Both the position numbers and the translations under genes were made by a program. Source: Geminisphaera colitermitum TAV2 (GTDB taxonomy: Bacteria; Verrucomicrobiota; Verrucomicrobiia; Opitutales; Opitutaceae). Taken from it: a stretch of DNA of 64,000 nt. The stretch covers positions 1-64,000 of the forward strand of contig NZ_ABEA03000084.1 in NCBI RefSeq assembly GCF_000171235.2, given 5' to 3'. The first letter of the stretch is position 1; every line of letters starts with the position of its first letter. The notes under the pieces were generated by a model that ran no database searches, was not told where the DNA came from, and saw only the letters and a program-made list of their open reading frames with translations. Shown piece by piece: positions 23,669-47,760 of this stretch.

Positions 23669-23743
23669 GATGGCAATGGGTTCAGTGTGCGATTGCAGAG
23701 CGATGTCATGGAACCGTGCGCTTGCGAAGGAAACAGCGTTGCG

Positions 23744-23759
23744 ATTGAACCTGTTCAAT
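23744..23759. promoter_or_regulatory. Candidate operator palindrome ATTGAAC-CT-GTTCAAT
   Basis: Perfect 7+2+7 inverted repeat between divergent GH10 and LacI-type genes. Confidence 0.6.
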
Positions 23760-23773
23760 TTCATGCCCGAAAC

Positions 23774-24853
23774 ATGGCCCAAACCCAACACGCCGTCACC
23801 CTGACCGACGTCGCCGCCCGCGCCGGATTAAGCCGCGCCACCGCGAGCATGGCCTTGCGTGACGACGCCCGCATCGCGCCCGCCACCCGCGAGCGTGTGC
23901 GCCAGGCCGCCGCCGCCCTCCACTACCAGCCCGACCCCGTCCTTGCCGCCCTCAGTTCGCGCCGCTGGCACCGGCGCGCCTCCGCCAATCTCGCCGTGCT
24001 GATCGACGAACGCTGGGAGCCCGCCGCCAGCACCTCCCCCCCCGCCTCCTCCTGGCTGACCGCGTGCCTCGACGGAATGCGAACTGCGTCATTACGATTC
24101 GGATACGTTTTGAGCGAACTCCGCCTCATCCGAGACCTTGCCGCGTGGCGACACCCCGACCGCGTGCTCGCCGGACGCGGCATGCGCGGCCTGATCGTGC
24201 TGCCGTTCCACGACGAAGCCCCGCCCGGCATGCCCGATCTCGACTGGTCGCGTTACTCGGTGGTGGCCGTGGGCAATCCCCTCCCCGGCCAAGGCTGGCA
24301 TCGCGTGGGCACCGACGCCTTTGCCGCCATGGGCCTCGTGTGCGACCGCCTCCGCGAGCGCGGCATCCGGCGTATTGGCCTTGTGCAGAATATCGGCACG
24401 GAACGCCGCCTGCGTTACGAATGGCTCGGCGCGCTGGCCAAGGAGTGGCACCTGCCCCCCTCCCCCCCCCTCCCCGGCAACCGTGCCCGTGTCCCCCGCC
24501 TGCAAATCATCCCGCCGCACTTGCCGGCAACGCTGGACGAACGCCGTTTCCTCGCATGGTTCCGCCGCGAGCGCCCCGAGGTCGTCGTGACCAACGACTC
24601 ATGCGTCATCACCTGGCTGCGCAAAGCCGGGGTGCGCGTGCCGGAAGACGCCGGCGTGGTATTGTTAAGTCGCGATTTTTCCCCGCAAACCAACGCCGCC
24701 GGCATCTCCCAACACCTCGACGAAGTCGGTCACGCCGCCATCGAACTGATGCACGGCCTCATTCTCCGCGGGGAACGCGGCACCCCCGCCGTGCGCCGCG
24801 AAATGCTGGTGCATCCGCACTGGACGGAGGGCGCCACACTGCGCCGCCCGTAG
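23774..24853 (+). CDS. LacI family transcriptional regulator
   Basis: VTLTDVAARAGLSRATASMALRDDARIAPATRERVRQAAAALHYQPDPVLAAL HTH; periplasmic-binding-like sensor domain. Start taken at MAQTQ. Confidence 0.9.
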   Translation: MAQTQHAVTLTDVAARAGLSRATASMALRDDARIAPATRERVRQAAAALHYQPDPVLAALSSRRWHRRASANLAVLIDERWEPAASTSPPASSWLTACLDGMRTASLRFGYVLSELRLIRDLAAWRHPDRVLAGRGMRGLIVLPFHDEAPPGMPDLDWSRYSVVAVGNPLPGQGWHRVGTDAFAAMGLVCDRLRERGIRRIGLVQNIGTERRLRYEWLGALAKEWHLPPSPPLPGNRARVPRLQIIPPHLPATLDERRFLAWFRRERPEVVVTNDSCVITWLRKAGVRVPEDAGVVLLSRDFSPQTNAAGISQHLDEVGHAAIELMHGLILRGERGTPAVRREMLVHPHWTEGATLRRP

Positions 24854-28015: not shown

Positions 28016-28168
28016 GATGCCCCGGAGTGAACCCTCCCCCCCCCTCCGTCCGCAAATGCAAAACTCTTCACATCAATCCCTCTCCCCCCCCCCCCCCCGC
28101 CCCTCCATTTTGCCTCATTCATTTTTCCGCTTTGCCCCCAAGCCCCTGCGTCTCTGACACTGGAAAAC

Positions 28169-31239: not shown

Positions 31240-31289
31240 CGCAACTGATGTTACGTAGAGAGCAGTGGTGCGGGCGTCTCGCCCGCAGT

Positions 31290-31392
31290 AGGGGCGTCGC
31301 TTGCGACGCCCGCGCACGCCATTTGAGGCCACGTCCTGCATACGCGGGCTTCGCAAGCGAAGCCCCTACATGTGGCGCGGGCGTCCCGCCCG
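31290..31392 (+). repeat. 103-bp REP-like element, left copy flanking IS110
   Basis: Nearly identical (about 4 mismatches by eye) to 32729-32831; contains perfect hairpins GGGCGTCGC-TT-GCGACGCCC and GGGCTTCGC-AA-GCGAAGCCC. Confidence 0.85.
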
Positions 31393-31510
31393 TTGTAGCA
31401 ACTATCTTGGAGAGTGATTTTTTATGAGCTTGAGAAGTATGAGGGAGAGGCAAAGCAGTGGCATCGGAGGAAGGGGAGTCCACCGAGAGAGAAGAGCCTT
31501 GAACCGTCAA

Positions 31511-32461
31511 TCAGGACGGGAGGGCAGCGGCGTAGGCCGGACGCAGCAGAGAGTTAAGGAAGATGAGGAGTTTTCTGGCGATGGCGACATAGGCTACGGT
31601 GGGAGGTTTGCCGCGAGCGCGCAGTTGTTGGTAGTGGAGACGGGAAGGCTCATGCCAGCGAGCGGCGACCATGGCGCACTGGTAGAGGACGCGGCGAGCG
31701 GGAGCGCGGCCACCTTGGATGATGCGAAGACCCTTGAGTTTGCCGGAGTCCCAGGGAAGGGGGGCAAGGTCGGCGAGCTTGGCGATCTGTCTGCGGTTCA
31801 GGGAGCCGAGTTCGGGCAGGTAGGCGATAAGGGAAAGGGCGCTGAGGATGCCCACACCCGGAGCGAAGCACAGGGTGTGGATACGCTCGAGCCAAGGCGC
31901 CGCCTGTTCGCTGTAGAGCCAAGCCTGCAGATCAAGTTCGAGAGCGAGGCGGTGGGAGCGCAGGGCGCGCACAACGCGCTTGAGTTGAAGAGCGCTCCGA
32001 GCACTGAGCAGGTTGTTGCGCATGTCGAAGGCGCTGATCTGTTCGACGATGGCATGGCGAGCCATGAGCAGGTCGCCCAGACGCCGCAGGGCGTCCGAGG
32101 GCACGGGCGAGGGCGCGGGGTGACCTTCGATGCCCAAACGCAAGAGAACACGAGCATCGATCGGATCGGTTTTTTCGAGTGTGCCGAGCGACTTGGCGAA
32201 GGCGCGGACTTGTGCCGGGTTCAGGCAGGTCAGGGCAATGGCGTTGAGGGCGCAGCGTTGTTGCAACAAACGGTGATGACGTCCGGTGGCCTCGCAGAGC
32301 AAATGGACGCCGGCTGGCAGGCCGGCCAGCCAGGAGTCCATCGCTTGCGGGCAATTGGGGACGTTGACGACTTTGGCAGCAAGAGTGCTGCAGACCGCGA
32401 GCGAGTCTTTGGCGACATCGACACCGACGTAATCAGTTGCGGGCAGAGGATACATGCTCAT
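31511..32461 (-). CDS. IS110 family (DEDD) transposase
   Basis: YVGVDVAKDSLAVC, LLCEATGRHHR, KTDPIDARVLLRLG N-terminal DEDD motifs; C-terminal FAPGVGILSALSLIAYLPELGSLNRRQIAKLADLAP. ORF extends to 32506. Confidence 0.93.
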   Translation of the reverse strand: MSMYPLPATDYVGVDVAKDSLAVCSTLAAKVVNVPNCPQAMDSWLAGLPAGVHLLCEATGRHHRLLQQRCALNAIALTCLNPAQVRAFAKSLGTLEKTDPIDARVLLRLGIEGHPAPSPVPSDALRRLGDLLMARHAIVEQISAFDMRNNLLSARSALQLKRVVRALRSHRLALELDLQAWLYSEQAAPWLERIHTLCFAPGVGILSALSLIAYLPELGSLNRRQIAKLADLAPLPWDSGKLKGLRIIQGGRAPARRVLYQCAMVAARWHEPSRLHYQQLRARGKPPTVAYVAIARKLLIFLNSLLRPAYAAALPS

Positions 32462-32609
32462 CCTTGTTTTGTCGGACTCGCCGGAGCAATTGCTTCGGTG
32501 GTCCATTCAACGGTTCGAGCGATTAACCAAAAGGTCGCCTGCGGTTCATGCTACCAGCGCTCTGATCCGAACGGATCAAGCAGGGGCGTCGACGAACTCG
32601 CAGGCGGCC

Positions 32610-32728: not shown

Positions 32729-32831
32729 AGGGGCGTCGCTTGCGACGCCCGCGCACGCCATTCGAGGCCACGTCCTGCATACGCGGGCTTCGCAAGCGAA
32801 GCCCCTACGCGTGACGCGGGCGTCCCGCCCG
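32729..32831 (+). repeat. 103-bp REP-like element, right copy flanking IS110
   Basis: See 31290-31392. Confidence 0.85.
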
Positions 32832-32879
32832 CAATGTAGCACGGGCTGCCTCCCGTGATTCGCAGAATCAGGGCAGGCT

Positions 32880-32919
32880 GTCCCGGTTTGGAGAATTTTT
32901 GGCGCGTAATGCCAAAGAC
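32880..32919 (+). promoter_or_regulatory. Conserved motif TCCCG-N14-TGGC-N7-GCCAAAGAC, copy 3
   Basis: Ungapped match to reverse complements at 46306-46345 and 47577-47616; same orientation relative to the downstream gene. Confidence 0.65.
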
Positions 32920-32953
32920 ATTACCCCGGACGACCGGATAAGCTTGGAACGCC

Positions 32954-33781
32954 GTGAATCCTCCCGAATTTTCCGTCTTCGTAAGATCCTGGGGCGCAAT
33001 GCCCTTGCCCCAGCTTGCCGAAAAAATCAAAGGACTCGGCTTTGACGGCATCGAACTCCCGGTCCGCCCCGGTTTCCCTGTGACCCCCGACAACGTGCAA
33101 ACCGCCCTGCCGGAAGCCGTCCGCATTTTCGCCAGCCAAGGACTCAAAATCCACAGCATCGCCTCCGACCTGACAGAACCGATTTTCCAAGCCGCCGCCG
33201 CTGCGGGCGTTCCCCTCGTTCGCATCTGCGTTCCCATCCCCTCAGGGAAAACCTATCTGGAGGCGGAAGCGGACGTGAAACGGAACTTCGCCGCACTCGT
33301 CCCCCTGCTCACAAAATATGGCGTGACGATCGGCGTGCAAAATCACTGTGACCGCTGGGTCTCCCATTCGATGGGACTCCTGCGCCTGATCGAAGATTTT
33401 TCCCCGAAACACTTCGCGGCGGTATGGGATGCCGCGCACAATGCCCTCAATGGCGAAGACCCGGACCTCGGCCTGGACATCGTCTGGTCACGCCTGCGGA
33501 TGGTGAACCTGAAAAACGCCTTCCGGAAACGCACCACGCCCCCCGAAGCCGAAGTGGCGACATGGAAAATTTACTGGACCTCCGGCCGGCAAGGGCAGGT
33601 CTCCTGGCCGCAAGTCGCCCGCGAACTGGCTCAACGCGGATACCAAGGCCCCGTGTGCCTGACTGCCGAATACAGCGACCAAAGCTCGGTGGACCGACTC
33701 ATCGCCGAGGACATCCGTTTCGCAAAAGAAATTTTTTCCAAGGAATACGCCGCCCGCTTCGCAGCGGAAATTAAGAATTAG
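32954..33781 (+). CDS. Sugar phosphate isomerase/epimerase (xylose isomerase-like TIM barrel)
   Basis: QLAEKIKGLGFDGIELPV, YGVTIGVQNHCDRW, FAAVWDAAHN. Confidence 0.82.
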   Translation: MNPPEFSVFVRSWGAMPLPQLAEKIKGLGFDGIELPVRPGFPVTPDNVQTALPEAVRIFASQGLKIHSIASDLTEPIFQAAAAAGVPLVRICVPIPSGKTYLEAEADVKRNFAALVPLLTKYGVTIGVQNHCDRWVSHSMGLLRLIEDFSPKHFAAVWDAAHNALNGEDPDLGLDIVWSRLRMVNLKNAFRKRTTPPEAEVATWKIYWTSGRQGQVSWPQVARELAQRGYQGPVCLTAEYSDQSSVDRLIAEDIRFAKEIFSKEYAARFAAEIKN

Positions 33782-33901
33782 AATTTAGAAATTAAGACGT
33801 CCAAGCCACCCAAACCGCACCGCAACCGCAGTCCGTTTTCCTAATTCCTAATTTCTACTTCCTAATTTTCCGTCCCCCCCCCCCCTGCCGAAACAGTCAT
33901 C

Positions 33902-34894
33902 ATGAAATCGCAATCTTCCGTATCCGAAAAACCACTTCGCATCGCCATGATCGGTGCCGGGCAACTGGCGACGGCCATGCACTATCCCTCGCTTACCTCG
34001 ATGCCCGACGTCGAAATCGCTGCGATGTGCGACATGAACCCCGAACGCCTCAACCTCATCGGTGACAAATTCGGCGTAATCAAACGCTACACCAACTACC
34101 GCACCATGCTGGAGGAGACCGCGCCCGACGCCGTTTACGCAATCGGTCCATCCCACCACATGTATGACATCTGGATCGACTGCCTCAAACGCGGACTGAA
34201 TCTCTTCATCGAAAAACCGATGGGCCTGACGCTTCATCAAGCCGAAACCCTGGCATGGCTGGCGGACAAACACGACTGCATCACGCAAGTCGGCTTCCAA
34301 CGACGGAGCGCCCCGCTTGCGGTGAAACTTTACAACGAATGCCGCAAACGCGGTCCCATTACCCACGCCCTCTGCCGCTTCTACAAATGTGCCCCCAGCC
34401 CGCTGCACGGCGCCGCCGATCACATGATGGAAGACGGCGTTCATTCGATCGACACACTGCGCTGGCTCTGCGGCGGCGAAATCGTCCGCATCCAAAGCGT
34501 CACCCGGCGGGTCGGCACGCCCGACATCAATTTCATCAGCGCCCTGATCGAATTCGACACCGGCGCCACCGGCCTGCTCATCAACAGTTGGAGCAGCGGA
34601 CGGCGCATCTTTGACATCGAAATCCACGCCCCCGGCATCTGCGCCGAACTGGAGCACGAGGGCAAAGGATACCTCCACGCCGATGGCGACACGACCGGCA
34701 CCGAGTTCGACACGCGCGAAGTCAGCGGCTCGGACCAAATCCATGTCTATGGCGGTTTCCATGCCAAGAGCCGGGAATTCCTCGACGCCATGCGCAACGG
34801 AACGCGCCCCTCGTCCCATTTCGGCGATGCCGTAAAAACAATGGCCGCCGCAGTCGAAATCCTTTCGCAAACCCGCTCCGAGAAACGACCATGA
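33902..34894 (+). CDS. Gfo/Idh/MocA family oxidoreductase
   Basis: RIAMIGAGQLATAMHYPSL Rossmann motif; GLNLFIEKPMGLT. Confidence 0.92.
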   Translation: MKSQSSVSEKPLRIAMIGAGQLATAMHYPSLTSMPDVEIAAMCDMNPERLNLIGDKFGVIKRYTNYRTMLEETAPDAVYAIGPSHHMYDIWIDCLKRGLNLFIEKPMGLTLHQAETLAWLADKHDCITQVGFQRRSAPLAVKLYNECRKRGPITHALCRFYKCAPSPLHGAADHMMEDGVHSIDTLRWLCGGEIVRIQSVTRRVGTPDINFISALIEFDTGATGLLINSWSSGRRIFDIEIHAPGICAELEHEGKGYLHADGDTTGTEFDTREVSGSDQIHVYGGFHAKSREFLDAMRNGTRPSSHFGDAVKTMAAAVEILSQTRSEKRP

Positions 34895-36402
34895 ACCTTC
34901 CAAAAATAAAAATCCGCGAAGCCCGCGCCTGTATCCAACCCGTGGAGACGCGAATGCCGTTCCGTTTCGGCATCGCCGAGATGCGCCGGATGCCGCACCT
35001 CTTTCTCCGCGTCACGCTGGAACAAGGCGGCGCGCGGGCCACCGGTCTGGCCGCCGATCATCTCGTGCCCAAGTGGTTCACCAAAAACCCCCGCACCACC
35101 TGCGACGAGGACATCCGCGAAATGCGCGAAGTGGTGCTCGAAGCGTGCCGGGTCGCGGAAGACGCCGCGGGCGAATCCACACCGTTCGCCTTGTGGTGGG
35201 AGATTTATCACGAACAGCAACGACGCGCAAAAGTGCGCGGATGGCCTCCCTTGCTGGCCTCGTTTGGCGCATCTCTCATCGAACGCGCCCTGCTCGACGC
35301 CTTCTGCCGACTGGGAGCAGGGGGGGGGGGGGGGGGAGGATCGGGATCGGGAGCGGGATCGGCACCAAAACCGTTTTCCGCCGTGCTGCGCGAGAACAGC
35401 GCGGGCATCGACCTGGGACGGATTTACCCGGAACTGTCGGGCATTGCTCCTGCCGACATTCTTCCATCCCGGCCATCCGAGCGCGTGTTCGCGCGTCACA
35501 CGATTGGGCTGAGCGATCCGCTGACCGACGACGACCTGCGCAATGGAGAATGGCCCGTGGACGGCCTGCCGGTTTCCCTGCGTGCCTGCATCCGCCACTA
35601 CGGTCTCGTCCGGTTCAAAATCAAAATTTCCGACGACACCGAAAAAAACATCGACCGCCTCACGGTCATCGCCTCGCTGCTGGAACGCGACGCGCCACCC
35701 GACTACCAATGCACGCTCGACGGAAACGAATCGTATCGGAGTATTGAATACTTCCTGGATTTCTGGAATCGCCTGATTCGGACAAAGGCGCTTGAGCCGT
35801 GGCTCGACCATCTCTTGTTCGTGGAACAACCGTTGCACCGCGACGTCGCGCTTGGCACGGACATGCGAAAGGTGTTTGCCGATTGTCCGCGCGTTCCCCG
35901 GATGCTTATCGACGAGTCCGACGCCACCATCGACACGCTTCCCCAGGCGCTCGCCTGCGGTTATGAGGGGACAACGCACAAGAACTGCAAAGGTGTTTTC
36001 AAAAGCGTGGCCAATCTCGGTCTGCTGAAACATCGCGCCAAGGCGGGAGGGGCGGGCGGAGCCGCGTTTCTATTTAGCGGCGAGGATCTGTCCAACATTG
36101 GCCCCGTGGCCTTGTTGCAGGATTTGTGTGTCGCGCAAAACCTGGGGCTCACCGATCTGGAGCGCAACGGACACCATTACTTCCGTGGCCTGTCGAATTT
36201 CCCACGAGAGATATGGACGTCGTTGTTGAAAGAGCATTCCGATTTGTATCAGGAACTCCATGACGGATGTCCTGCCGTGCGTATCGTGAACGGTGAAATT
36301 TCCTGCGCCTCGGTGCATCGGCACGGACTCGGAACCTCGTTCGATTTGGACACCGCACTGTTCACGCCGCTGGAAGCGTGGAGCGGCAAATTGCAAGCGT
36401 AA
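34891..36402 (+). CDS. Enolase superfamily (mandelate racemase/muconate lactonizing-like) protein
   Basis: 503 aa; RFKIKIS (KxK), CTLDGNES, LLFVEQPL, RMLIDESDAT, THKNCKG in the expected order. ATGA overlap with upstream gene. Confidence 0.75.
   Translation: MNLPKIKIREARACIQPVETRMPFRFGIAEMRRMPHLFLRVTLEQGGARATGLAADHLVPKWFTKNPRTTCDEDIREMREVVLEACRVAEDAAGESTPFALWWEIYHEQQRRAKVRGWPPLLASFGASLIERALLDAFCRLGAGGGGGGGSGSGAGSAPKPFSAVLRENSAGIDLGRIYPELSGIAPADILPSRPSERVFARHTIGLSDPLTDDDLRNGEWPVDGLPVSLRACIRHYGLVRFKIKISDDTEKNIDRLTVIASLLERDAPPDYQCTLDGNESYRSIEYFLDFWNRLIRTKALEPWLDHLLFVEQPLHRDVALGTDMRKVFADCPRVPRMLIDESDATIDTLPQALACGYEGTTHKNCKGVFKSVANLGLLKHRAKAGGAGGAAFLFSGEDLSNIGPVALLQDLCVAQNLGLTDLERNGHHYFRGLSNFPREIWTSLLKEHSDLYQELHDGCPAVRIVNGEISCASVHRHGLGTSFDLDTALFTPLEAWSGKLQA
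35320..35336 (+). repeat. Poly-G tract (about 17 nt) inside enolase-superfamily ORF
   Basis: Direct read; encodes a Gly run. Confidence 0.93.
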
Positions 36403-36417
36403 CGGATCATCCCCTCT

Positions 36418-36434
36418 CCCCCCCCCCCCCCCCC
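36418..36434 (+). repeat. Poly-C tract (about 17 nt), intergenic
   Basis: Direct read, about 60 nt 5' of the likely SSS symporter start (36496). Confidence 0.93.
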
Positions 36435-36462
36435 TCCACACACACACATACCCACGACGCGT

Positions 36463-38511
36463 TTGCCGTTTTGGTTTCCGCCATTTTCGCATCTCATGCA
36501 CATCATCGACTGGTTGGTTATCACGGTGCCCTTGGCCATTGTCCTGACCGTTGGTGTCATCACGCATCGCTACATGAAAAGTGTTGCCCACTTCGTATCC
36601 GGAGGTCGTGTTGGCGGACGTTATTTGCTGGCTGTTGCCAAGGGGGAAATGACGGCGGGGGCGGTCGTGTTCGTGGCGGCGTGGGAGGTGTTTGCTCAGT
36701 CGGGATTCATTCCGACTTGGTGGGGTTGGATCACGGGGCCGGTGGCCATTGTCGTGGCGATTTTCGGGTTCGTCATTTATCGGTTTCGTGAGACGCGGGC
36801 CATGACGCTGGCCCAGTTTTTCGAGATGCGTTACAGCCGCAATTTTCGTTTGTTCGCCGGTGTGCTTGGGTTTGTGGCCGGTGTGATTAACTTCGGCATC
36901 ATCCCGGCGATTGGGGCGCGGTTCATGGTGTATTTTCTGCAACTGCCAACAGAGATGACGGTTCTTTCGTATTCATTTCCTACTTACATTGCGTTGATGG
37001 GAGTGTTTCTTTCCATCAGCCTGACGCTCACGATCTCGGGTGGTTTGATCACGTTGATGGTGACGGACTGCATCGAAGGGATTTTTGCGCAGTTGATGTA
37101 CATCGTCATCATTGTGGGCGTGCTTTGCATGGTGGATTGGAGCGAGATGTCGGCCTTCATCGGCACGCGTCCGCCGAATCATTCGATGGTCAATCCGTTC
37201 GATGCGTGGGCGGTGCAGGATTTCAATTTGTGGTTTGTGTTGATGGGCGTGTTTGTCGGGACGTACGGCACGATGGCGTGGCAAAATTCCAGCGCCTACA
37301 ACACGGCAGGGGCGACGCCGCACGAGGCGCGCATGGGTGGTTTGCTTGGGCGCTGGCGCGAGCAGGGAAAGAGCGCCGTGGTGGTGTTGCTGGCGCTGGC
37401 CGCGCTGACCTACCTGGGACATCCTGATTTCGTCTCGGCGTCCGAGGTGGCGCGCGAGTCGATTGAGGGCATCGAGCAGGCTCAGATCAGAAAACAAATG
37501 ACGATCCCGGTGGCCTTGTCCCACATGTTGCCGATTGGTGTGAAGGGTGCGCTTTGCGCAGTGTTGTTGCTGGGGATTTTTGGCGGAGATTCGACGCACT
37601 TGCATTCGTGGGGAGGCATTTTGGCGCAGGATGTGATTCTGCCTCGTTTGAAGCGTACGCCTGCGCCGGCGGGGCACATTCGTTTGTTGCGAGCGTGCAT
37701 TATCGGGGTGGCGGTTTTCGCGTTTTTGTTCGGGGCATTTTTCCGGCACACGGAATACATCATCATGTGGTGGCAGGTGACGACTGCGGTTTATGTGGGT
37801 GGAGCGGGCGCGGCGATTGTCGGCGGGCTTTACTGGAAGCGGGGAACGTCGGCGGGGGCGTGGTCGGCGATGGTGGCGGGGGCGATTTTGTCGGGCGGGG
37901 GCATCTTGGTTTATAAGTTGTTTGGTGACGCCTTTCTGTCGCGCGCGTTGCAGGCGCTGGGTCTTCCGGTGGGGGATTTTACGGTCAATGGAATGCAGAT
38001 TTCGTTTTTTTCCACGTTGGTTGCGATCACGCTTTACGTGGTTGTTTCGCTCGCCACCTGCCGTCGGGATTACCCGCTCAACAAGATGCTGCATCGTGAC
38101 GAATTGCCGCTCGACGCCAATGGGCGTCCGATTGTGGCGAAGCGTCCGCGGACGCTGGCGCGGATCGTTGGCATCGACGAGCGTTTCACGACGGGTGACA
38201 AGTGGATCACGGGGAGTTTGTTTTGCTGGGCGTTTCTGTGGTTCGGCGTGATGCTTGTTGGCACGGTGTGGAATTTGATTGGCCAGTGGGGTTGGTTGCA
38301 TTGGGCGGGGATCAAACCGTGGTCGAACGAGAATTGGCTTGGTTTCTGGCACGTAACGGCGATCGGTTTGCCGTGTATCATAACTGTGGTGACAGGTTTG
38401 TGGTTCACTTGGGGTGGTGTTCGTGACATCCGGCGGCTGTTCGCTTCGTTGCGTGGTTACAAGATCGACGACTCCGACAATGGCACCGTCGAACAGCACA
38501 AACCGTGGTGA
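36463..38511 (+). CDS. Sodium:solute symporter family transporter
   Basis: 682 aa, many TM segments; SSS-type pattern including AQFFEMRYSRNFRLFAGVLGF. True start may be MHIIDW at 36496. Confidence 0.87.
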   Translation: MPFWFPPFSHLMHIIDWLVITVPLAIVLTVGVITHRYMKSVAHFVSGGRVGGRYLLAVAKGEMTAGAVVFVAAWEVFAQSGFIPTWWGWITGPVAIVVAIFGFVIYRFRETRAMTLAQFFEMRYSRNFRLFAGVLGFVAGVINFGIIPAIGARFMVYFLQLPTEMTVLSYSFPTYIALMGVFLSISLTLTISGGLITLMVTDCIEGIFAQLMYIVIIVGVLCMVDWSEMSAFIGTRPPNHSMVNPFDAWAVQDFNLWFVLMGVFVGTYGTMAWQNSSAYNTAGATPHEARMGGLLGRWREQGKSAVVVLLALAALTYLGHPDFVSASEVARESIEGIEQAQIRKQMTIPVALSHMLPIGVKGALCAVLLLGIFGGDSTHLHSWGGILAQDVILPRLKRTPAPAGHIRLLRACIIGVAVFAFLFGAFFRHTEYIIMWWQVTTAVYVGGAGAAIVGGLYWKRGTSAGAWSAMVAGAILSGGGILVYKLFGDAFLSRALQALGLPVGDFTVNGMQISFFSTLVAITLYVVVSLATCRRDYPLNKMLHRDELPLDANGRPIVAKRPRTLARIVGIDERFTTGDKWITGSLFCWAFLWFGVMLVGTVWNLIGQWGWLHWAGIKPWSNENWLGFWHVTAIGLPCIITVVTGLWFTWGGVRDIRRLFASLRGYKIDDSDNGTVEQHKPW

Positions 38512-38574
38512 GTTGCCGGTCTCCAAACTCCGAGTCATCGACTGAAGCTGTTTTGGTTTTGAGAGTGTTCATTT

Positions 38575-38700
38575 TGGAGTGCGGTGATTCATCACCGCTT
38601 TTGACGGCGCGATTTATCGCGTCGCCCCGCCCAGTGGAGCGACGAAGAGAGCGGGGCGTTAAAACGCCCCGTCAAAGCGGCGATAAATCGCCGCACTCCA
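38575..38700. repeat. Palindromic REP-like element with multiple hairpins
   Basis: Ends TGGAGTGCGG...CCGCACTCCA; internal hairpins GCGGTGAT-TC-ATCACCGC, GGGGCGTT-AA-AACGCCCC, GCGGCGAT-AA-ATCGCCGC. Confidence 0.85.
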
Positions 38701-38783
38701 TAGGGAGGCGGAAGGCGGGAGGCGGGATGCTTGCGTTCCGGGTTGTTCTGCAATTTATCCGCAGCAAATAATCCCCACCGCGC

Positions 38784-39680
38784 ATGTCCTCCCAAACGAG
38801 TTTTATGAGAGACGAGAAAGGCTTTGAAGAAACACGCGAGCGCGCCCTGCTGGCATTGGGAGTGCGCATCTTTCAAAACCCCAGGCTTTTGGTCCAAGCC
38901 TACTGGCATCGGATGAAAGATAAAATTCTGGTCCCCCCACATGACCATTCCGACATGTTGCAACTGGACCTGAATATCGGAATGTCCGGAGTAATCACCA
39001 TTGAGGAAGAGACGATTCCCATTCAGGGAGTGACGGCGGCGGCGTTTTATCCCGGCCAGAGACATTCCATCGAATTGGAACCCGCAGCACCCCAGGCTTG
39101 GATCTTCAGCATCAAGATTCGTGTTTCCCCACAATGGGAAGCGGTGCGTGAACGGATTTTCCATCCCTACCTCAAACTGCTTTTCGCCGACCACCACTTG
39201 GTGAAAATGTTGCGTCAACTGAACAGGGTCGGGACAGTGGAAAGTTCGCGGCAAACGCTGATGTGCGTAACGCTGGCCGACGTGCTTTGTCACTGGCCGG
39301 GCGCATCCTCCGGCACCACGTCGCACACGCTTCAGACCGGACCAGACGGGGAAATCGGGACGGGAATGCAAAACGCGCTCCACCTCATCGACGAAAATCT
39401 TTCGAATCCGCCTTCGCAGCAGCAACTGGCGGCCTCTTCGCATATGTCTACCCGCAATTTCACGCGACATTTCCGGCAACTGTTCGGTTGCGCGCCCCAT
39501 GCCTACATCACGGCGCGACGTCTGGCCTGCGCCCGGGAGTTGCTCGCGCACAAGGCCCGCAACATCACCGAAATCGCGGACGAACTCGGTTTCCCGTCGA
39601 TCCACGCCTTTTCAAGATGGTTCCAGCGGATCGAGGGAACCAGTCCGAGCGTGTATCGGGAAAAGCATTTCCTGCTATGA
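38784..39680 (+). CDS. AraC family transcriptional regulator
   Basis: Cupin-like N-terminal sensor; C-terminal HTH PSQQQLAASSHMSTRNFTRHFRQLFGCAPHAYITARRLACARELL...ITEIADELGFPSIHAFSRWFQRIEGTSPSVYREK. Confidence 0.92.
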   Translation: MSSQTSFMRDEKGFEETRERALLALGVRIFQNPRLLVQAYWHRMKDKILVPPHDHSDMLQLDLNIGMSGVITIEEETIPIQGVTAAAFYPGQRHSIELEPAAPQAWIFSIKIRVSPQWEAVRERIFHPYLKLLFADHHLVKMLRQLNRVGTVESSRQTLMCVTLADVLCHWPGASSGTTSHTLQTGPDGEIGTGMQNALHLIDENLSNPPSQQQLAASSHMSTRNFTRHFRQLFGCAPHAYITARRLACARELLAHKARNITEIADELGFPSIHAFSRWFQRIEGTSPSVYREKHFLL

Positions 39681-39798
39681 ACCCGGTTTGACGTGTTCGC
39701 AGATCGCGAATCGACGCGAATTAAAAGGCAGGGGGGGGGGGGAGGGAGGACGTTCAACCAAGCCGGGGGTTTCTTTGCGGGGGCTGAAAAACGTCAAT

Positions 39799-41583
39799 TT
39801 ATGGTTCCACGGTTATGGCGGAAATTTGGCTGAAAAAAAGATCGGCGCCTGCAGGGGTGATGATTCGGAGTTTGGCGGTTTTCTCGCTCAACATTGGCGG
39901 TTTCGCATGAGGTCCGGGACGAAAATCCGACCAGTGAATCCGAACTTCTTTCCAGTCCTGACCGGGGGGGGGCTGATTGACTTCCCAAACATGATAGACC
40001 GCGTCCGTCTCCTCGTTCACGAGTTGCACAGTAAAACCAGTGCCACCAGGCGAGCGTGCCCAAAAGGAAAGACCGGCGCTTCGGTCGCGCGCCAAGGAAA
40101 GTCCTCTCAGACCAAAGCAGTCCAACGCGTATTGACCGGTGATTTCGATTGCCGGCTGACCATTAAAGGCACCGCGATGAAAACGATGACGTCCGCCGCG
40201 GTAGCCTCCATCGTAGGGCGGATGCCATAGGCGGGAGTCAAAGTCCGGGGCGTGGACGGAAGCCGTCCAAAGAACGGTCCGGCGGTCCGCATCAGTGAAG
40301 CCGAGTGCAGGCGGATCGACCCGTAGCAAAGAAGTGGATACGGATATTTTGCGATCATCTGTTGCCAGCCCAAACCAGTCGAGCGGCTGGTCCGGCTCCT
40401 CCACGGGAAGCGTGGCATAATAACTCCCTGCGGTGCTGGCGCGGCATTCCAGCTTTTTCCAATGGCGGGTTCTCCACGGAGTTTCTCCGTAAGAATACCA
40501 GACTGTTGCTGCGGTCACCGGAACGGGACTTGTGACTTGAAACGTCACCCGGATGCCAGCGCCATCACGTATCGGTTTTTCAGCTACAAAGCAGATTGGA
40601 AACGGTTTCCCTTCTCCCTTGAGGTGATGATCCATCCAGGCGATTTCCTGCATGGCGCGGTGCGCGCGGGAATCGACCGGGGTGGGGCCGGTATTTCCGC
40701 CGGGAAAGGCAAGGGCGTGAGAGGTGTTGGGCGAAAAAACGAGATTTTTCGGGGAATGGATTTTGTCCAACGTGGCCTGCACCGAGGGCGGCCAGAAAAA
40801 CCAGTCGCAAGCAGCAGCGGCAAAAAAATAGCTGGCTGTGATGTCTCCGGCGAAGTTCCCGGCATCAAAGTGTTTCAGCCAGAGAGCACGATTCTCCGTT
40901 CCCCGCCGCGCCAAGGCGTCTTGGAAGACGGTGCCGTGGTCGTAGAAGCCGCCGCCATAAACCGCAAAGGCCGCCTTGACACGGTCACGTTTCAAACCGC
41001 TGACCATCGTAGTCATGTAACCGCCCCAAGAACCGCCGGTCACACCGATTCGGTCGGGGTCAACATCGGGTTGGGCGCGCAGCAGATTGAATCCGTTGAG
41101 GGCTGCGAGAATGCCGTCATAGAGCTGGTTGCGAGTTGGGTCGGGCTTGCATCGCCAGGGATTTCGGTCCTGTCCCCAATATCCTGTTGACCGCATTTTT
41201 TTGGAATCGGCGATGCCGGGTTCGTCCTGACAAAAGGCGACATATCCCAAGCTGGCCCAATGTTTCACCGCCGGCTCGACGTGGTCTGCCGTAGCGCCTC
41301 CTCCATGACAGACCAGAATGGCTGGGCGGCGTGCTGATTTTTCGGCAGGGCGGGCCAGAATGCCGTAAATGCTCACGATCGAGTTGTCGGGAAGCGTCCG
41401 GTTGAGAAAACGCAGGCGGGTGATTTCGATGGAATCTTCGTTTTTGGTCTCAATAATTTCGAGGATTTGTGGCGGCGCATCTCCCAAGTAAGGAGCGAAT
41501 AGGGAGTGTTCGCCGGCACGTAATCCAAGGACAAGGAGGCCGATAATAAAACAGACAGGGAAAAAGGTGATGAGGCGTCTCAT
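39799..41583 (-). CDS. Acetylxylan-esterase/dienelactone-hydrolase-like alpha/beta hydrolase, secreted
   Basis: 594 aa; signal peptide; ILVCHGGGATADHVEPAVKHWASLGYVAFCQDEPG, GVTGGSWGGYMTT nucleophile elbow. Confidence 0.78.
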   Translation of the reverse strand: MRRLITFFPVCFIIGLLVLGLRAGEHSLFAPYLGDAPPQILEIIETKNEDSIEITRLRFLNRTLPDNSIVSIYGILARPAEKSARRPAILVCHGGGATADHVEPAVKHWASLGYVAFCQDEPGIADSKKMRSTGYWGQDRNPWRCKPDPTRNQLYDGILAALNGFNLLRAQPDVDPDRIGVTGGSWGGYMTTMVSGLKRDRVKAAFAVYGGGFYDHGTVFQDALARRGTENRALWLKHFDAGNFAGDITASYFFAAAACDWFFWPPSVQATLDKIHSPKNLVFSPNTSHALAFPGGNTGPTPVDSRAHRAMQEIAWMDHHLKGEGKPFPICFVAEKPIRDGAGIRVTFQVTSPVPVTAATVWYSYGETPWRTRHWKKLECRASTAGSYYATLPVEEPDQPLDWFGLATDDRKISVSTSLLRVDPPALGFTDADRRTVLWTASVHAPDFDSRLWHPPYDGGYRGGRHRFHRGAFNGQPAIEITGQYALDCFGLRGLSLARDRSAGLSFWARSPGGTGFTVQLVNEETDAVYHVWEVNQPPPGQDWKEVRIHWSDFRPGPHAKPPMLSEKTAKLRIITPAGADLFFSQISAITVEP

Positions 41584-41639
41584 GGGCGTTGTTTTTTACT
41601 TTCTTAAGGGAGTTTCTAAAAAACTTTTTTGACAGAACA

Positions 41640-41706
41640 ACAGACCAAGGAGCGGCGGTCTCCAAGCCGCCGTCGGACGAGGTGCATCGCGCCTCGCCTG
41701 ATGCTG
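41640..41706. repeat. Short palindromic element (ACCAAGGAGCGGCGG type)
   Basis: ACCAAGGAGCGGCGG-TCTCCAAG-CCGCCG shared with 22221-22275. Confidence 0.6.
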
Positions 41707-41768
41707 TGCGGCATTTAATCAGGCGACACTTCGCGTAACATCCGTGTGTGTTTTCATTGGGTTCGTGG

Positions 41769-42482
41769 CTATTTGCGGATGTTATTTAAGAGTGTTTCGA
41801 GCGTGGGCGGGGAGCCGTCAGTCATCGTGGTTTTGCCGAGTGTGCGCACGCTGCCATCGGCAAAAGTAGCGTTCATTGTCTCGCTCTTGTGACGCCAGTC
41901 GAATTCGTCGCGCGTGATTGAGCCGATGTTGACGTAAACAAAGCTGTCCTCCTTGGTGCCGTTTTGCCGGGCTTCGACAATGAGGAGGGATTGCGAAGGG
42001 GCGCCGATTTGTGAAAAGGTTATGGGCACGGTGCTGCCTCCCGTGAAATTAAGCGCGTAGGTGCGGAGGGGGGGGACGCTGAATGTGGCTGCGGAGTCGG
42101 GACAGAGAAAGAGATTGTCGTGAGCACCAGCACCTGGATAGCGCATGGCGAGGTGTTTTTGGATGACGCGCCACCAGCTTTGCACGGGGGAGGTTTCACC
42201 TGAACCGGGATAATCGGGATTCGGGTTCTGGTCGGCGATGGGTGAGCGTCCGCGATTTTCGTCGGCATACCGAAGGAGGGCGAGGCCGAGTTGGCGCATG
42301 TTGGACTTGCACTGGACGGCGCGGGCCGAGCGGCGGACGGTGCCAACGGTGGGGATGATGATCGCGGCTAGCATCCCAATTATCGCTACAACCGTGAGGA
42401 GTTCGATAAGCGTGAAACCTGAATGTGGGGTGTAGCGGAGAGTCCGGCACAGGATCGGAGGATGACGGGCATTGGTGTGCAT
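41769..42482 (-). CDS. Pseudopilin-like protein (prepilin N-terminal methylation domain)
   Basis: SGFTLIELLTVVAIIGMLAAIIIPTVG and ATFADGSVRTL; start set at MHTNARHPP to avoid overlap (ORF extends to 42566). Confidence 0.85.
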   Translation of the reverse strand: MHTNARHPPILCRTLRYTPHSGFTLIELLTVVAIIGMLAAIIIPTVGTVRRSARAVQCKSNMRQLGLALLRYADENRGRSPIADQNPNPDYPGSGETSPVQSWWRVIQKHLAMRYPGAGAHDNLFLCPDSAATFSVPPLRTYALNFTGGSTVPITFSQIGAPSQSLLIVEARQNGTKEDSFVYVNIGSITRDEFDWRHKSETMNATFADGSVRTLGKTTMTDGSPPTLETLLNNIRK

Positions 42483-42525
42483 GGAGAGCAGAGGTGGCGG
42501 GGAAATGTCGATGACTGGAAAAGGA

Positions 42526-43572
42526 TCAGGGAGCGGTGTCCCAAGGCGCGGATATTGGTTGTTCAATGAGACCGGAGAGCGCGCCGGGCTGGCGGATTTC
42601 GCGTCCGAGCGTCGCGGGGGCGGCGGCCCATTTGGCGGATTCCATGTAGGTGCGCCAGAGGCGGGTGGTGTGCGGGTTGCGATGGACGATGAGATTGCTC
42701 ACGCGAATGACTCCGGATTTCTCGGTGGCGAGCTGTACCATGCCGTTGCCCCAGATGCGGACGTTTTCGCCTTCGAGCGTGGCTTCACGCTGGCAGAGAC
42801 CGATGCCGAGGTTGTCCCAGATGAGGAGGTCGCGGACGCGGGTGCGAGAGCGCTGGATGTTATAAATGCCGTTGTCGTTGCCGAAAAAACGGCCTTCGCG
42901 GATTTCGCTTTCGATGTCGTCGTGCGCGGAAAATCCTTCGTCGAGGTTGTGGCAGGCGGTGATGTTTTCGAAAAGGAGTCCGGTGCCGCGTCCGTGGAGG
43001 TTGAAGCCGTCATTGCGCGAGCCACTGGCGGTGAGGTTGCGGTAGCGGTGGTGCGAGACGTTGTGGATGCGAGCAGCGAAGCGGCGCGTGGAAATTTCCC
43101 AGCCGTCGGGCGTGACGTCGGGCCCAAGTGTGAGCGTTTTGCCTGCGGGGTCGTAGGTGATGGCGGAGGCGGACGAGGCGGGTGTGAATTGTCCCGTCAG
43201 CGCATCCTCGGGGATGCGTACGCCGTGGTGGCGGAGGACAAAGGGATAATCGGTCGTGACGTTCGCGATACGTTCAGGAGAGAAGGCAACAATATCGAAG
43301 CCGGTGATTTCGTTGCCGTTGCCTTCAATGGTGATGGGGGCGTCGGGCGTGCCGGAGCGCGGGATGAAGAGTTCTTCGCGGTAGGGGCCGCTGCCGGGGG
43401 CGAGCCAGAGGGTGTCGCCGGGGCGGGCTTGCGCGGAGGCGGCGGCAAGCGTGGGGAGGGCGGCGGGGTCGCGGGGATCGATATGGAGCCAGCGTGCGTC
43501 GGGCGGCGCGGACTGGAGGGCGAGGGCGGTGGCAAGGAAGGCAATGGAGCGGGCGGGGAGAGGATGGGGCAT
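42526..43572 (-). CDS. Right-handed parallel beta-helix protein
   Basis: 348 aa; HYRNLTASGSRNDGFNLHGRGTGLLFENITACHNLDEGFSAHDDI repeats. Confidence 0.78.
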   Translation of the reverse strand: MPHPLPARSIAFLATALALQSAPPDARWLHIDPRDPAALPTLAAASAQARPGDTLWLAPGSGPYREELFIPRSGTPDAPITIEGNGNEITGFDIVAFSPERIANVTTDYPFVLRHHGVRIPEDALTGQFTPASSASAITYDPAGKTLTLGPDVTPDGWEISTRRFAARIHNVSHHRYRNLTASGSRNDGFNLHGRGTGLLFENITACHNLDEGFSAHDDIESEIREGRFFGNDNGIYNIQRSRTRVRDLLIWDNLGIGLCQREATLEGENVRIWGNGMVQLATEKSGVIRVSNLIVHRNPHTTRLWRTYMESAKWAAAPATLGREIRQPGALSGLIEQPISAPWDTAP

Positions 43573-43599
43573 GGCGGACTTCCGGGATTGAGTTTGTAT

Positions 43600-45429
43600 T
43601 CAGGGGTCAATGACGACGTGTTCGGAATTGTTTGCTTCGATGGGTCTGGCGGTGGTGAGGCCGAAGGGGTTTTTGTGCGAATCGGTGATGGTCGCCGCGT
43701 TCTGGTTGGCGCGGGTAATGGGGTTGTTTTTGACGAGGATGTTGGCGGCTTGGTTGATGTGGATGGCGGGGCCACCGACGTTTTCAATGGTGTTATGTTC
43801 GATGCGGATGTCGCGGTTGCGAGCGGCTAGGGGGGGGGGGGTATCGGGGGTTTCGCCACGATGCACGATGGAAATGGCCCCGGGGGTCCAAGCGGCTTTG
43901 CCCAAAAGTCCGGGATCAAAAGCGGAGTTTTTGATCGTGTTGCGGCGAAGGGTAATGTCGCTCACCCAACCGGCTTCACGAAAAGCGACAAATTCGTGTC
44001 CGAGTGTGATGGCGGATTGTTTGATGCCGTCGATGAAGTTGTCTTCAATGAGTCCGTGGCTGGCGAGGATGCGGAGGGCGCGTCCTCGGTGTTGGGTGAA
44101 CCGATTGTTGCGGATGATGTAGCCGGGCGCAGCAGTGGCGGGGATTTCAATGAGGTCGCCTGCTGAGGGAGTGAGCGGGGCGTCGAGTTTGAGGCGATAG
44201 AGGGTGAATTTTTCAAGGCGGGCGGCATCGGCTTGGTTGGAGCGGGGATAGAGGCGGCGGGCGAGATCGTGAAAGCGCGGGCCGGGCGCGGGATCAATGT
44301 CAATGTCGACAACGCGGGCAACGCCAGTGAGGTCGAAGTTGTCGCGTGCGAGCGTGCGCACTTCGTCGCCGGGACGGATGATCGTGGGGAAACTTTCGCG
44401 GCCATGCGGGCGAATGAGGTTGATGATGTTGTTCGCCGGATCGGCTTCGGCGACGACGAAGGCAATGCCGTGGAGGTTGACGGAGTCGTCGCCCATGCGC
44501 GAGAAATCGCAATTTTCAAGGATGGGGCCGGTGCGGGCGTAGGCGTAGTTGAAGCCGTCCGCCGAGCTGGAAAACAGGCGTGGAAGGGTTGCGCCGGAGG
44601 GGGGGGGGCCGGGGGTGATGGTAAGGTTTTTGAAGGTGTTTTGTCCGTCCATGAAGCGGAGCAGGATGGCGACGCCGGGGGCGCTGTGGACGGTGATGTG
44701 GTCGAGGGTGAGGTTGCGGCTGCGTTCGATGCGGAAGGCACCGCGTTCGCTCCTGATGTTCTGCACGAGGTGGTCGCCGGGGACGAGGTACGCGAGTTGC
44801 CAGCGTCGGTCGGCGGCAAAGGTGAGTTGTCCGCGGCGCGGAGTGAGAGCGCGGGCGGCGGTGGCGTAGATGTCGGGCGCGTCACGTTTCCATTCGTGGG
44901 TGTCGGGGGCGAAAATATGGGCGCGGTTGACAACGCGGTCGGACGTGAGGTCGGGATAGCCGTCGTGCACGGTCCAGACAAGGATGCCGGTGGCGGGGTC
45001 GATGGCGTCGATGGTGCCTTGCGTGAAAGGCAGCGGATCGAAGTCCACGGTAAAACCGCGCAAGGTGAGGTTTTCGCATTCGGTTATGGAGAAACCACCG
45101 TCCTTGAGGTTGGTGAAAACGAGCGTCGCTCCGTCGCCCTCAATGGTGAGGCCGGAGAGTTTGCGCAGGCGAAGGGCGGAGGCGAGCCGGTGTTCGCCAG
45201 CGGGGATTATGACACGGGCAACCCCACGCGCCACCGCGCCATCAATCAGCGTCTGAATGTTGGCGGCAGGGGAGAAGAAGGGGACGGACGGAGGCTCTTG
45301 CTGTGTGTTGTTTTCGGATACAACAGAGGCGGCAACGACAAGCGGCAGCGTGACTGTTACAAGCGCGATGAGTGGGCGGATCATGAGCGGGAGCGGCAGG
45401 TGACGCGGCGGAGGCGAAGAAACCGGCAA
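43600..45429 (-). CDS. Right-handed parallel beta-helix protein, paralog of 6836-8731
   Basis: 609 aa; shares FDPLPFTQGTI, TGPILENC..MGDDSVNLHG, IIRNNRFTQHRGRALRI with the other protein. Confidence 0.8.
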   Translation of the reverse strand: MPVSSPPPRHLPLPLMIRPLIALVTVTLPLVVAASVVSENNTQQEPPSVPFFSPAANIQTLIDGAVARGVARVIIPAGEHRLASALRLRKLSGLTIEGDGATLVFTNLKDGGFSITECENLTLRGFTVDFDPLPFTQGTIDAIDPATGILVWTVHDGYPDLTSDRVVNRAHIFAPDTHEWKRDAPDIYATAARALTPRRGQLTFAADRRWQLAYLVPGDHLVQNIRSERGAFRIERSRNLTLDHITVHSAPGVAILLRFMDGQNTFKNLTITPGPPPSGATLPRLFSSSADGFNYAYARTGPILENCDFSRMGDDSVNLHGIAFVVAEADPANNIINLIRPHGRESFPTIIRPGDEVRTLARDNFDLTGVARVVDIDIDPAPGPRFHDLARRLYPRSNQADAARLEKFTLYRLKLDAPLTPSAGDLIEIPATAAPGYIIRNNRFTQHRGRALRILASHGLIEDNFIDGIKQSAITLGHEFVAFREAGWVSDITLRRNTIKNSAFDPGLLGKAAWTPGAISIVHRGETPDTPPPLAARNRDIRIEHNTIENVGGPAIHINQAANILVKNNPITRANQNAATITDSHKNPFGLTTARPIEANNSEHVVIDP

Positions 45430-46268
45430 GCACCACCGAGGGCAAGCACGGTGGCGCCGAGAAGCGACGCGACGGTGGCCGGCTCCGGAACGGGGGTGCC
45501 TTGGACGTAGAACTCGAATGCCCTGTTGGCGGTGGCCGTCACTAATGTTCCAAGTGCTCCAGTTCCTGTGTTGTTGAGGCGTTCGAGGGCAAGCCCGCCA
45601 GCATAGGCGGTGGTGCCGGTGGCGCCGATCTGGAATCCGAGGGTGATGCTGCGGCTGGCAGCCATCTCGTCGAAATGGAGCAACACGCCGTAAACGTTGC
45701 CCGCCTTCAGCCGTATGTTTGCTTCGGATACATCAAAGACGAGGTAATCGTTTTTGGCGATGGCGATGGCGGGTGTTTCGCCTGAAAGCGTTTTGAGCAC
45801 GGTGGCGGAAGAGGCGGAGAGGTCGGACGCGAAACTGTAAATGGTGAGCGTGAAGGGAGTTTCTTTGCAGGCGTTCGCCGTGGTCGTATTAAGCCCCGAC
45901 GAGACGAAAAACGCGATCGAATCAAAGGTGGCGTCATGCGTGGCGGTAAAGGACTGTCCAACGTCGCGCCAGCCGTCGCTTGAGGCGCTTGTATCGGCGC
46001 GCCAACCTCGTCCATCGGTGCCTGTTGGCGTGAAGGAGGCGACGAGATTGTTGGCGGGTTTGAGCGTCGTGGCGCTAAGTGTGGCTTCGGGATTGGCAGC
46101 GCGGGCGGATGTCGTCCCAAGGATAAATAAAAGCACGGCGGCGAAGACGAAAGCTGGGCCTGTATGTGCGAAACGGAGTGATGTTTGGATGGTTTTCATG
46201 GCGGAAGAGATGGGATGATTTTTGGGGAAAGATGCGGGTGTGGGGTGGCCGATATGGCCGGAAATCAT
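45381..46268 (-). CDS. PEP-CTERM sorting domain protein
   Basis: Signal peptide; beta-sandwich-like body; C-terminus VPEPATVASLLGATVLALGGACRFLRLRR. Confidence 0.83.
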   Translation of the reverse strand: MISGHIGHPTPASFPKNHPISSAMKTIQTSLRFAHTGPAFVFAAVLLFILGTTSARAANPEATLSATTLKPANNLVASFTPTGTDGRGWRADTSASSDGWRDVGQSFTATHDATFDSIAFFVSSGLNTTTANACKETPFTLTIYSFASDLSASSATVLKTLSGETPAIAIAKNDYLVFDVSEANIRLKAGNVYGVLLHFDEMAASRSITLGFQIGATGTTAYAGGLALERLNNTGTGALGTLVTATANRAFEFYVQGTPVPEPATVASLLGATVLALGGACRFLRLRRVTCRSRS

Positions 46269-46305
46269 GCGACGGTTTTCATTTTACCGGTTTTGCGGAG
46301 ATCCT

Positions 46306-46345
46306 GTCTTTGGCAAAATGGGCCATAATTTTATCCTTTCGGGAA
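46306..46345 (-). promoter_or_regulatory. Conserved motif TCCCG-N14-TGGC-N7-GCCAAAGAC, copy 1
   Basis: Upstream of PEP-CTERM gene at 46268; see 32880-32919. Confidence 0.65.
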
Positions 46346-46360
46346 GGGGGGGGGGGGGGG
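46346..46360 (+). repeat. Poly-G tract (about 15 nt), intergenic
   Basis: Direct read, about 78 nt 5' of the minus-strand PEP-CTERM gene. Confidence 0.92.
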
Positions 46361-46373
46361 ACAGGAGAGGTGT

Positions 46374-47510
46374 TCAGCCCACCTTGACGGGTTGGCCGAT
46401 TTCGCGGCTACGCAAAGCGGCCTGGGTGATCTCAACGGCGCGCAGGCCGTCCACCGCCGTGGCGGAAATCTGTTCCGCACCCGATCGGATGCACTCCGCG
46501 AAATTGTCAATCGCCGCCTGCCAACCCTTGTCCACCGAGTAGTTGATGAGCGGCAGACGCGTGTCCTTCTGCCGCGAATAATCAGGGTCCAATGGCGACA
46601 GGCGTGACAGCCGCTCGGTTTGTTCGAAGATTTCTTTACGAAGTTCAGTCAAGGCCGGATAACCGCGACGCTCCAGTTCGGCGACATGCGCTTGCTCGCG
46701 AAATGGATGAAAATGTCCCGCGAAACACTTCACATCGGGATCGTCGGCGGAGAGGCCGAAATTTCGCACTTCCACAAACTCCTCAACCACGAGCATCCCC
46801 TGCGCCGCCACCGCCTCGAAGTGCTCTTTGGGCGTTTGCCACGAAGCATAGCCGCTGCTCAGCAAGGTCGCAGTGGCACCCGACGCAAAAACCAGCAACA
46901 GGCTCTCGTCATCCTGTCGTCCGCTCCGGCAATAGACCTCCGTCACCTCACTCCCCGCAAAGAAGCGCAGGATGTCGAAAATATGGCACAACTCGTGAAT
47001 CATCCGCTTGCCGCCGCCGAACCTAATGCCCCAATTGAGCGAATAGGTGTCGGCGATCCGGTAAAACATGTTTTGGGCGCCGCCGTTTTTGAGTAACATT
47101 TCGCGTGCATAGCGATACGCCGGAGCGCAACGGCGGTTCATGCCGACGGCCACGCGCAACGCGCTTTCGCGCTGCGCCCGGAGCACCTGCTCGCAAGCCT
47201 CCGTGGTCTCGGCCAACGGTTTTTCCACATACACGTGTTTGCCCGCGGCCAGTGCCTCAAGCGTGAGCGGCACGTGCGAGTCCTCCCGCGTGGCAATGAC
47301 GACGCCTTCGATGTCCGCCGAGGCCAGGATTTTTTTATAATCGGTTTCCAGCCGCTTCACGGAGTAGCATTCGCCAAGTTCCTTGAGAACGTCACCGCGC
47401 AGGTCGCACAAAGCGGTCAGTTCCGCGACGTCCGATTTGTAGATGTTGGGAATATGCTGGTTTTGCGCCAGCCCGCCCGTGCCGATAACCGCCAGTTTTG
47501 TCTTGTTCAT
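46374..47510 (-). CDS. Gfo/Idh/MocA family oxidoreductase
   Basis: MNKTKLAVIGTGGLAQNQHIPNI, GKHVYVEKPLAETTEACEQVL. Start set at MNKTK (ORF extends to 47618). Confidence 0.92.
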   Translation of the reverse strand: MNKTKLAVIGTGGLAQNQHIPNIYKSDVAELTALCDLRGDVLKELGECYSVKRLETDYKKILASADIEGVVIATREDSHVPLTLEALAAGKHVYVEKPLAETTEACEQVLRAQRESALRVAVGMNRRCAPAYRYAREMLLKNGGAQNMFYRIADTYSLNWGIRFGGGKRMIHELCHIFDILRFFAGSEVTEVYCRSGRQDDESLLLVFASGATATLLSSGYASWQTPKEHFEAVAAQGMLVVEEFVEVRNFGLSADDPDVKCFAGHFHPFREQAHVAELERRGYPALTELRKEIFEQTERLSRLSPLDPDYSRQKDTRLPLINYSVDKGWQAAIDNFAECIRSGAEQISATAVDGLRAVEITQAALRSREIGQPVKVG

Positions 47511-47576
47511 AATTTTGCAATGGGGATCCCCATTTTTCGATGGGACCCCCAGAGTGTATTCAGTTTCCTGCACCGC

Positions 47577-47616
47577 GTCTTTGGCAAAACAGGCCACAGT
47601 TTTGCTTTTTCGGGAC
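47577..47616 (-). promoter_or_regulatory. Conserved motif TCCCG-N14-TGGC-N7-GCCAAAGAC, copy 2
   Basis: Upstream of the Gfo/Idh gene start (47510). Confidence 0.65.
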
Positions 47617-47675
47617 AACTCCCCCCTCCGCCGCCCTCCATCGTTCCTCTCCTCCTAACGCCAACCTCACGTTTC

Positions 47676-47719
47676 TTAGAATAATTCCAATTCTCGCTTG
47701 CGATTTAGAACCATTCTAA
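47676..47719. promoter_or_regulatory. Two tandem 7-1-7 Fur/PerR-like boxes
   Basis: TTAGAAT-A-ATTCCAA (47676-47690) and TTAGAAC-C-ATTCTAA (47705-47719) upstream of a Fur-family gene. Confidence 0.65.
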
Positions 47720-47760
47720 TTTCTTGCGCCATTCACCGATACGACCACCGCCCGACTCGC

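Follow-up and report, generated by a model that had tools for sequence, protein, structure and literature searches.

A putative operator shared by three transcription units in a carbohydrate-use locus of Geminisphaera colitermitum TAV2

AraC of araBAD, RhaS of rhaBAD and XylR of xylAB are AraC-family activators whose genes lie inside catabolic loci, and which govern few target operons through operators of about 40 bp that abut or overlap a weak -35 box. A carbohydrate-use locus of Geminisphaera colitermitum TAV2 (Opitutaceae, Verrucomicrobiota) resembles these systems on each count: an AraC-family gene lies within it, and a putative operator of ~40 bp recurs next to the predicted weak -35 box of a few operons. 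Unlike the operators of the araBAD, rhaBAD and xylAB activators, the element described here has no clear pair of direct-repeat half-sites, and its sequence is not known to resemble any described site. The locus also has traits in common with those governed by the LacI/GalR repressors of polysaccharide loci. Regulators of this type have their operators at promoters and are common in this genome, and the gene for one of them lies beside the TIM-barrel gene of the sister genome, which is taken as that of Opitutaceae bacterium TAV5 and is the only other member of the genus examined. In contrast to LacI/GalR operators, however, the element is without significant dyad symmetry. The sigma-54-dependent regulation of PEP-CTERM genes (PrsK/PrsR) offers a third comparison, as a PEP-CTERM gene lies downstream of one copy and a GG...GC-like motif can be seen by eye. 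The -24/-12 elements of sigma-54 promoters follow the rule GG-N10-GC, whereas the element has GG-N8-GC and a sigma-70-like -10 box downstream. A sigma-54 promoter was rejected, by inspection, because of this wrong spacing. The motif was not found described in the titles and abstracts of the literature searched, and the operator sequence appears to be undescribed; a local AraC-type (or LacI-type) regulon of a sugar locus is in itself a well-known arrangement.

Three rows of genes

The window, i.e. the whole stretch of 64,000 nucleotides that was analysed, carries the locus as three rows of genes. The first, on the plus strand, begins with an operon whose first gene encodes a xylose-isomerase-like TIM-barrel protein (32954..33781; PF01261, E 8.6e-21; 82% identical in TAV5). 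It is followed by the genes for Gfo/Idh/MocA oxidoreductase A (33902..34894; PF01408; 84% identical in TAV5), a 503-aa protein (34891..36402) and a sodium/solute symporter (36463..38511; TIGR00813 with an E value of 3.7e-16, under the curated cut-off), the last of which has no match at the TAV5 cluster. The gene for an AraC-family regulator, our candidate for the operator-binding activator (38784..39680, plus strand; PF12833, E 3.1e-23; 77% identical in TAV5), probably belongs to this row as well.

The 503-aa protein has no match in Pfam, NCBIfam or PDB. By eye it is similar to the enolase superfamily, and relatives with 40-49% identity occur in many Verrucomicrobiota, Planctomycetota, Latescibacterota and Chloroflexota; it looks like an uncatalogued branch of that superfamily. 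Relatives are encoded in at least 137 candidate stretches from many phyla. A G17 tract within the gene (35320-35336) encodes a glycine run (LGAGGGGGGGSGSGAGSAP). The TAV5 counterpart is 19 residues shorter and not conserved at the glycine run, an in-frame case of the tract insertions described below.

The other two rows lie on the minus strand. The second consists of the gene for Gfo/Idh/MocA oxidoreductase B (46374..47510; PF01408). The third begins with a gene for a secreted protein with a PEP-CTERM-like tail, VPEPATVASLLGATVLALGGACRFLRLRR, recognised by eye in the translation of 45381..46268, which has no Pfam or NCBIfam match. ATG 46199 is its likelier start, because this codon precedes the signal-peptide-like sequence MKTIQTSLRFAHTG. 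Next come a beta-helix protein (43600..45429; PF13229, E 5.2e-14), for which ATG 45384 is a likelier start than TTG 45429, a second beta-helix protein (42526..43572; PF13229 with an E value of 4e-5, just under the gathering score; 80% identical in TAV5) and, at the end of the row, a pseudopilin-like DUF1559 protein (41769..42566; PF07596 and PF07963).

The window also contains 29 tracts of 9-22 C or G (e.g. 1746-1767, 28084-28098, 36418-36434 and 46346-46360). Runs of at least 14 C number 812 in the 5.67-Mb genome, whereas TAV5 has 1 and four further members of the family have 0-2 each. Over ~264 kb sampled, runs of 12-17 outnumber runs of 10, with no expansion of A/T runs. Of 46 tracts inside genes, 37 have their C in the coding strand; of 41 tracts between genes, 25 are flanked by two genes of the same direction, again with C in the coding strand; and many poly-C tracts are found 16-160 nt before start codons. 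A MutS_V domain (PF00488) is present in this genome. A sequencing artefact is a possible origin of the tracts. Upstream of the first row, an IS110/IS116-type transposase (31511-32506) lies where TAV5 has a LacI-type regulator, and its flanks (~31270-31400 and 32730-32850) are near-identical copies with small inverted repeats (GGGGCGTCGCTTGCGACGCCC... and CGCGGGCTTCGCAAGCGAAGCCC...). Another gene for a LacI-type regulator lies at 23249-24853; its helix-turn-helix starts only at residue 184 of the listed open reading frame, so translation probably begins farther downstream, unless the N-terminus is unusual.

Copies of the element and their conservation

An earlier note on this DNA had reported the motif TCCCG-N14-TGGC-N7-GCCAAAGAC upstream of three genes. 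Indeed, the window holds three exact matches (32881-32919 on the plus strand, 46306-46344 and 47577-47615 on the minus strand), and a scan of the whole 5.67-Mb genome with the gapped motif returns exactly the same three. Copy 1 (32880..32919, plus strand) lies upstream of the TIM-barrel isomerase operon, copy 2 (46306..46345, minus strand) upstream of the PEP-CTERM/beta-helix operon and copy 3 (47577..47616, minus strand) upstream of the second Gfo/Idh gene. Every copy reads toward its downstream gene, as had been claimed, and exact matches lying elsewhere than upstream of genes, which would have spoken against a regulatory element, were not encountered. The distance to the start codon, put earlier at 34-66 nt for all three, holds at the PEP-CTERM gene if translation begins at ATG 46268 (37 nt), and not if it begins at the likelier ATG 46199 (~106 nt).

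With up to three mismatches allowed, the window yields the same three sites and no more (chance expectation 0.11); the genome adds a single match at two mismatches, probably by chance. In an ungapped alignment of the three copies, 23 of 39 columns are identical throughout. The invariant positions beyond the first pattern include AA at 14-15, T at 18 and T at 27, and a T at position 30 extends the last block to TGCCAAAGAC. About 1e-6 triples this good are expected in 120-nt upstream regions, and in 100 Markov-randomised upstream sets the best triple per set had 16-19 identical columns. The pattern had been picked after inspection of the sequence; since the randomisation scans all triples, this post-hoc choice is allowed for. 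As many as 25 columns were reached in one set of real upstream regions, where the match is poly-C of low complexity.

All copies are confined to one 15-kb sugar-use locus. At one mismatch, the shorter pattern TGGC-N7-GCCAAAGAC has 31 matches in the whole genome versus 20 for a reversed control, with no clear excess beyond the three sites, and a genome-wide regulon was discarded on this count. A position-weight scan of the window and the sister region gave scores of 54-56 to the true sites and only 7-8 to the next best, which means that no weaker copies precede the AraC gene, the esterase gene or other genes of the cluster. Among 200 genomes of the family, those of TAV2 and TAV5 aside, only two have a single match at one mismatch, with no protein of the window cluster at either. 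Allowing up to three mismatches, the motif is also missing from all of the ~80 loci that surround distant homologues of the 503-aa protein.

In TAV5, the copy before the TIM-barrel gene (L008:16158-16196, minus strand) keeps 38 of the 39 positions. The TIM-barrel gene itself has 78.7% nucleotide identity between the two genomes, with 72 of 120 fourfold sites conserved (60%), and in the flanks of the element, aligned without gaps, 19 of 60 and 9 of 35 positions agree. In a gapped alignment, the element is followed by ~15 unrelated bases and then by a conserved -10-like box, the ribosome-binding region and the start codon. This pattern sets the limits of the footprint where the earlier note had put them, perhaps with one more base on the left.

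Only transitions, at 8 of 39 positions, separate copy 2 from copy 3, and a recent duplication is possible. One could thus imagine that a small mobile or duplicated segment with no regulatory role left the copies behind, but similarity does not extend beyond 40 bp, the genome has no further copies, the orientation toward genes is constant and conservation in TAV5 is strong, and we regard such an origin as extremely improbable.

TAV5 has the row TIM-barrel protein, Gfo/Idh protein, 503-aa protein and AraC protein, with 77-84% amino-acid identity. Its PEP-CTERM/beta-helix row is present and lacks the element, and Gfo/Idh B has no counterpart in the TAV5 genome; the regulon therefore differs between the two species. 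Judging from this comparison, the element at the first row is common to both, and the second and third rows would either have joined the regulon here or have left it in TAV5.

Promoter layout, symmetry and RNA folding

Each copy is followed by a -10-like hexamer: the predicted TAAGCT (32939..32944, plus strand) stands 19 nt after copy 1, with the best -10 score downstream of the motif, TAAAAT (46281..46286, minus strand) 19 nt after copy 2, and the predicted TACACT (47553..47558, minus strand) 18 nt after copy 3. The corresponding box in TAV5 is TATTCT, so that a TAnnnT hexamer lies 18-19 nt past the AAAGAC end in all four copies. These boxes are the best downstream -10 hexamers, that of copy 3 being a close second, and a shuffle test for a shared offset, at any offset, gave 0 of 5,000 (p below 2e-4). 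A separate promoter scan found AAGACA (46305-46310)-18-TAAAAT as the only promoter-like site on the minus strand of 46150-47750. Given the -10-like box at constant spacing, the AAGAC(A/G/C) end is best read as a poor -35 box, corresponding to the GAC of TTGACA. We infer that the three predicted promoters are active. With its remainder just upstream of the -35, the element looks like an activator site that overlaps the -35; as far as sequence goes, the operator abuts or overlaps the -35 of each target promoter, which is a feature of class II activators. Copy 1 poses a difficulty for the promoter model: its transcript would have a leader of just 2-3 nt if translation starts at GTG 32954, and conservation with TAV5 supports this start codon.

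TGGC-N7-GCCA had been taken for an inverted repeat and hence for a plausible site of a dimeric regulator. This found little support: inverted symmetry over the three copies is non-significant (p 0.21), and the dyad is broken in TAV5 (TGGC...GGCA) though 38 of 39 bases are kept there. The half-sites of AraC at araI1-I2 are spaced by 21 bp. In the element, the best direct-repeat period is also 21 bp, a weak signal with a p value of 0.026 if this period is preset and of 0.17 over all periods.

The same bases might instead pair in the RNA, as a hairpin (TGGC/GCCA or AAAAY/RTTTT) in a 5' leader that acts after the start of transcription. A stem common to copies 2 and 3 is indeed possible, its closing pair (positions 17/26) exchanged from C-G to T-A, and in copy 1 TTTGGC/GCCAAA can pair over 6 bp. 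However, the three copies give three different folds, none of which beats shuffled sequences (z -0.6 to -1.4, and +0.9 for the TAV5 copy), the sole change in TAV5 disrupts the stem, and the fixed spacing to the -10-like box puts the element upstream of the transcription start. An Rfam search gave no match, and with different weak folds in each copy a riboswitch or other cis-acting RNA was dropped as a candidate. We consider a role in the leader very unlikely.

The candidate regulator and the proposed regulon

There is good support for the local regulon proposed earlier, which joins the isomerase/dehydrogenase operon with the second Gfo/Idh gene and the PEP-CTERM operon: the element is exclusive to the locus, has a constant orientation and a phylogenetic footprint, and is followed at constant spacing by a -10-like box. 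A single local regulator most likely docks on this 39-bp element. In the explanation that we find best overall, and that we think probable, this stretch of 39-40 bp would bind the regulator, its downstream end overlapping the -35 of three sigma-70-type promoters, and one local transcription factor, most likely an AraC-family activator, would govern the three transcription units of the locus. The AraC-family protein (38784-39680) would occupy the 40-bp stretch beside the poor -35 box (AAGACA/AAGACG) and, in the presence of a sugar-derived inducer, bring in RNA polymerase; activation, as opposed to repression, and the identity of the regulator are what we infer.

The AraC gene had been named before as one candidate regulator, and it has proved a good one: it is present in one copy per genome, within the same gene row in both members of the genus, and at E 1e-15 neither genome encodes another match to the protein. 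An AraC-type helix-turn-helix regulator encoded at the locus is itself a feature of class II regulons. In a class-wide search of 384 genomes, from which TAV5 is apparently absent, with the best six candidates per genome scored, the AraC protein was found in its own genome only; a separate scan of genome contigs with this protein gave no match. Several points stand against the AraC model. TAV5 keeps AraC, yet its PEP-CTERM operon lacks the motif; no copy of the element precedes the AraC gene itself; the direct-repeat symmetry is weak; and ~90 LacI-type or ~90 AraC-type candidates elsewhere could serve the locus. On balance, the AraC protein is fairly likely to be the regulator that binds the putative operator.

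The site could also be the operator of another transcription factor encoded elsewhere, e.g. a LacI-type repressor, with AraC as a bystander or an additional input. Both genomes are very rich in LacI-type regulators (94 and 139 matches), in TAV5 the motif and the TIM-barrel gene directly follow a LacI gene, in whose place the IS110-type transposase is found here, and a repressor site overlapping the -35 is equally compatible with the layout. But the TAV5 LacI protein has no full-length close match here (the best full-length match is 48% identical, and a 79% match covers residues 230-341 only) although the site is kept; thus, LacI does not track the motif. In addition, a LacI operator would have the inverted symmetry that the element lacks, and a site found at a single locus points to a regulator encoded there. 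We hold a regulator encoded elsewhere to be rather unlikely.

Returning to the AraC-family activator, we put forward as a tentative possibility that its site is an undescribed type of AraC-family operator, with no recognisable direct or inverted repeats, which would couple intracellular catabolism of a sugar acid or polyol to PEP-CTERM/beta-helix surface display in termite-gut Opitutaceae. Once TAV5 had split off, the regulon may have gained the operon for surface proteins and the second dehydrogenase, or else TAV5 may have lost them from it. For a carbohydrate-use locus of a poorly studied phylum, a precise putative operator and a candidate regulator are now available, both of which are testable, and one of the two species, unlike the other, has the control sequence of its catabolic genes also before an operon for surface proteins.
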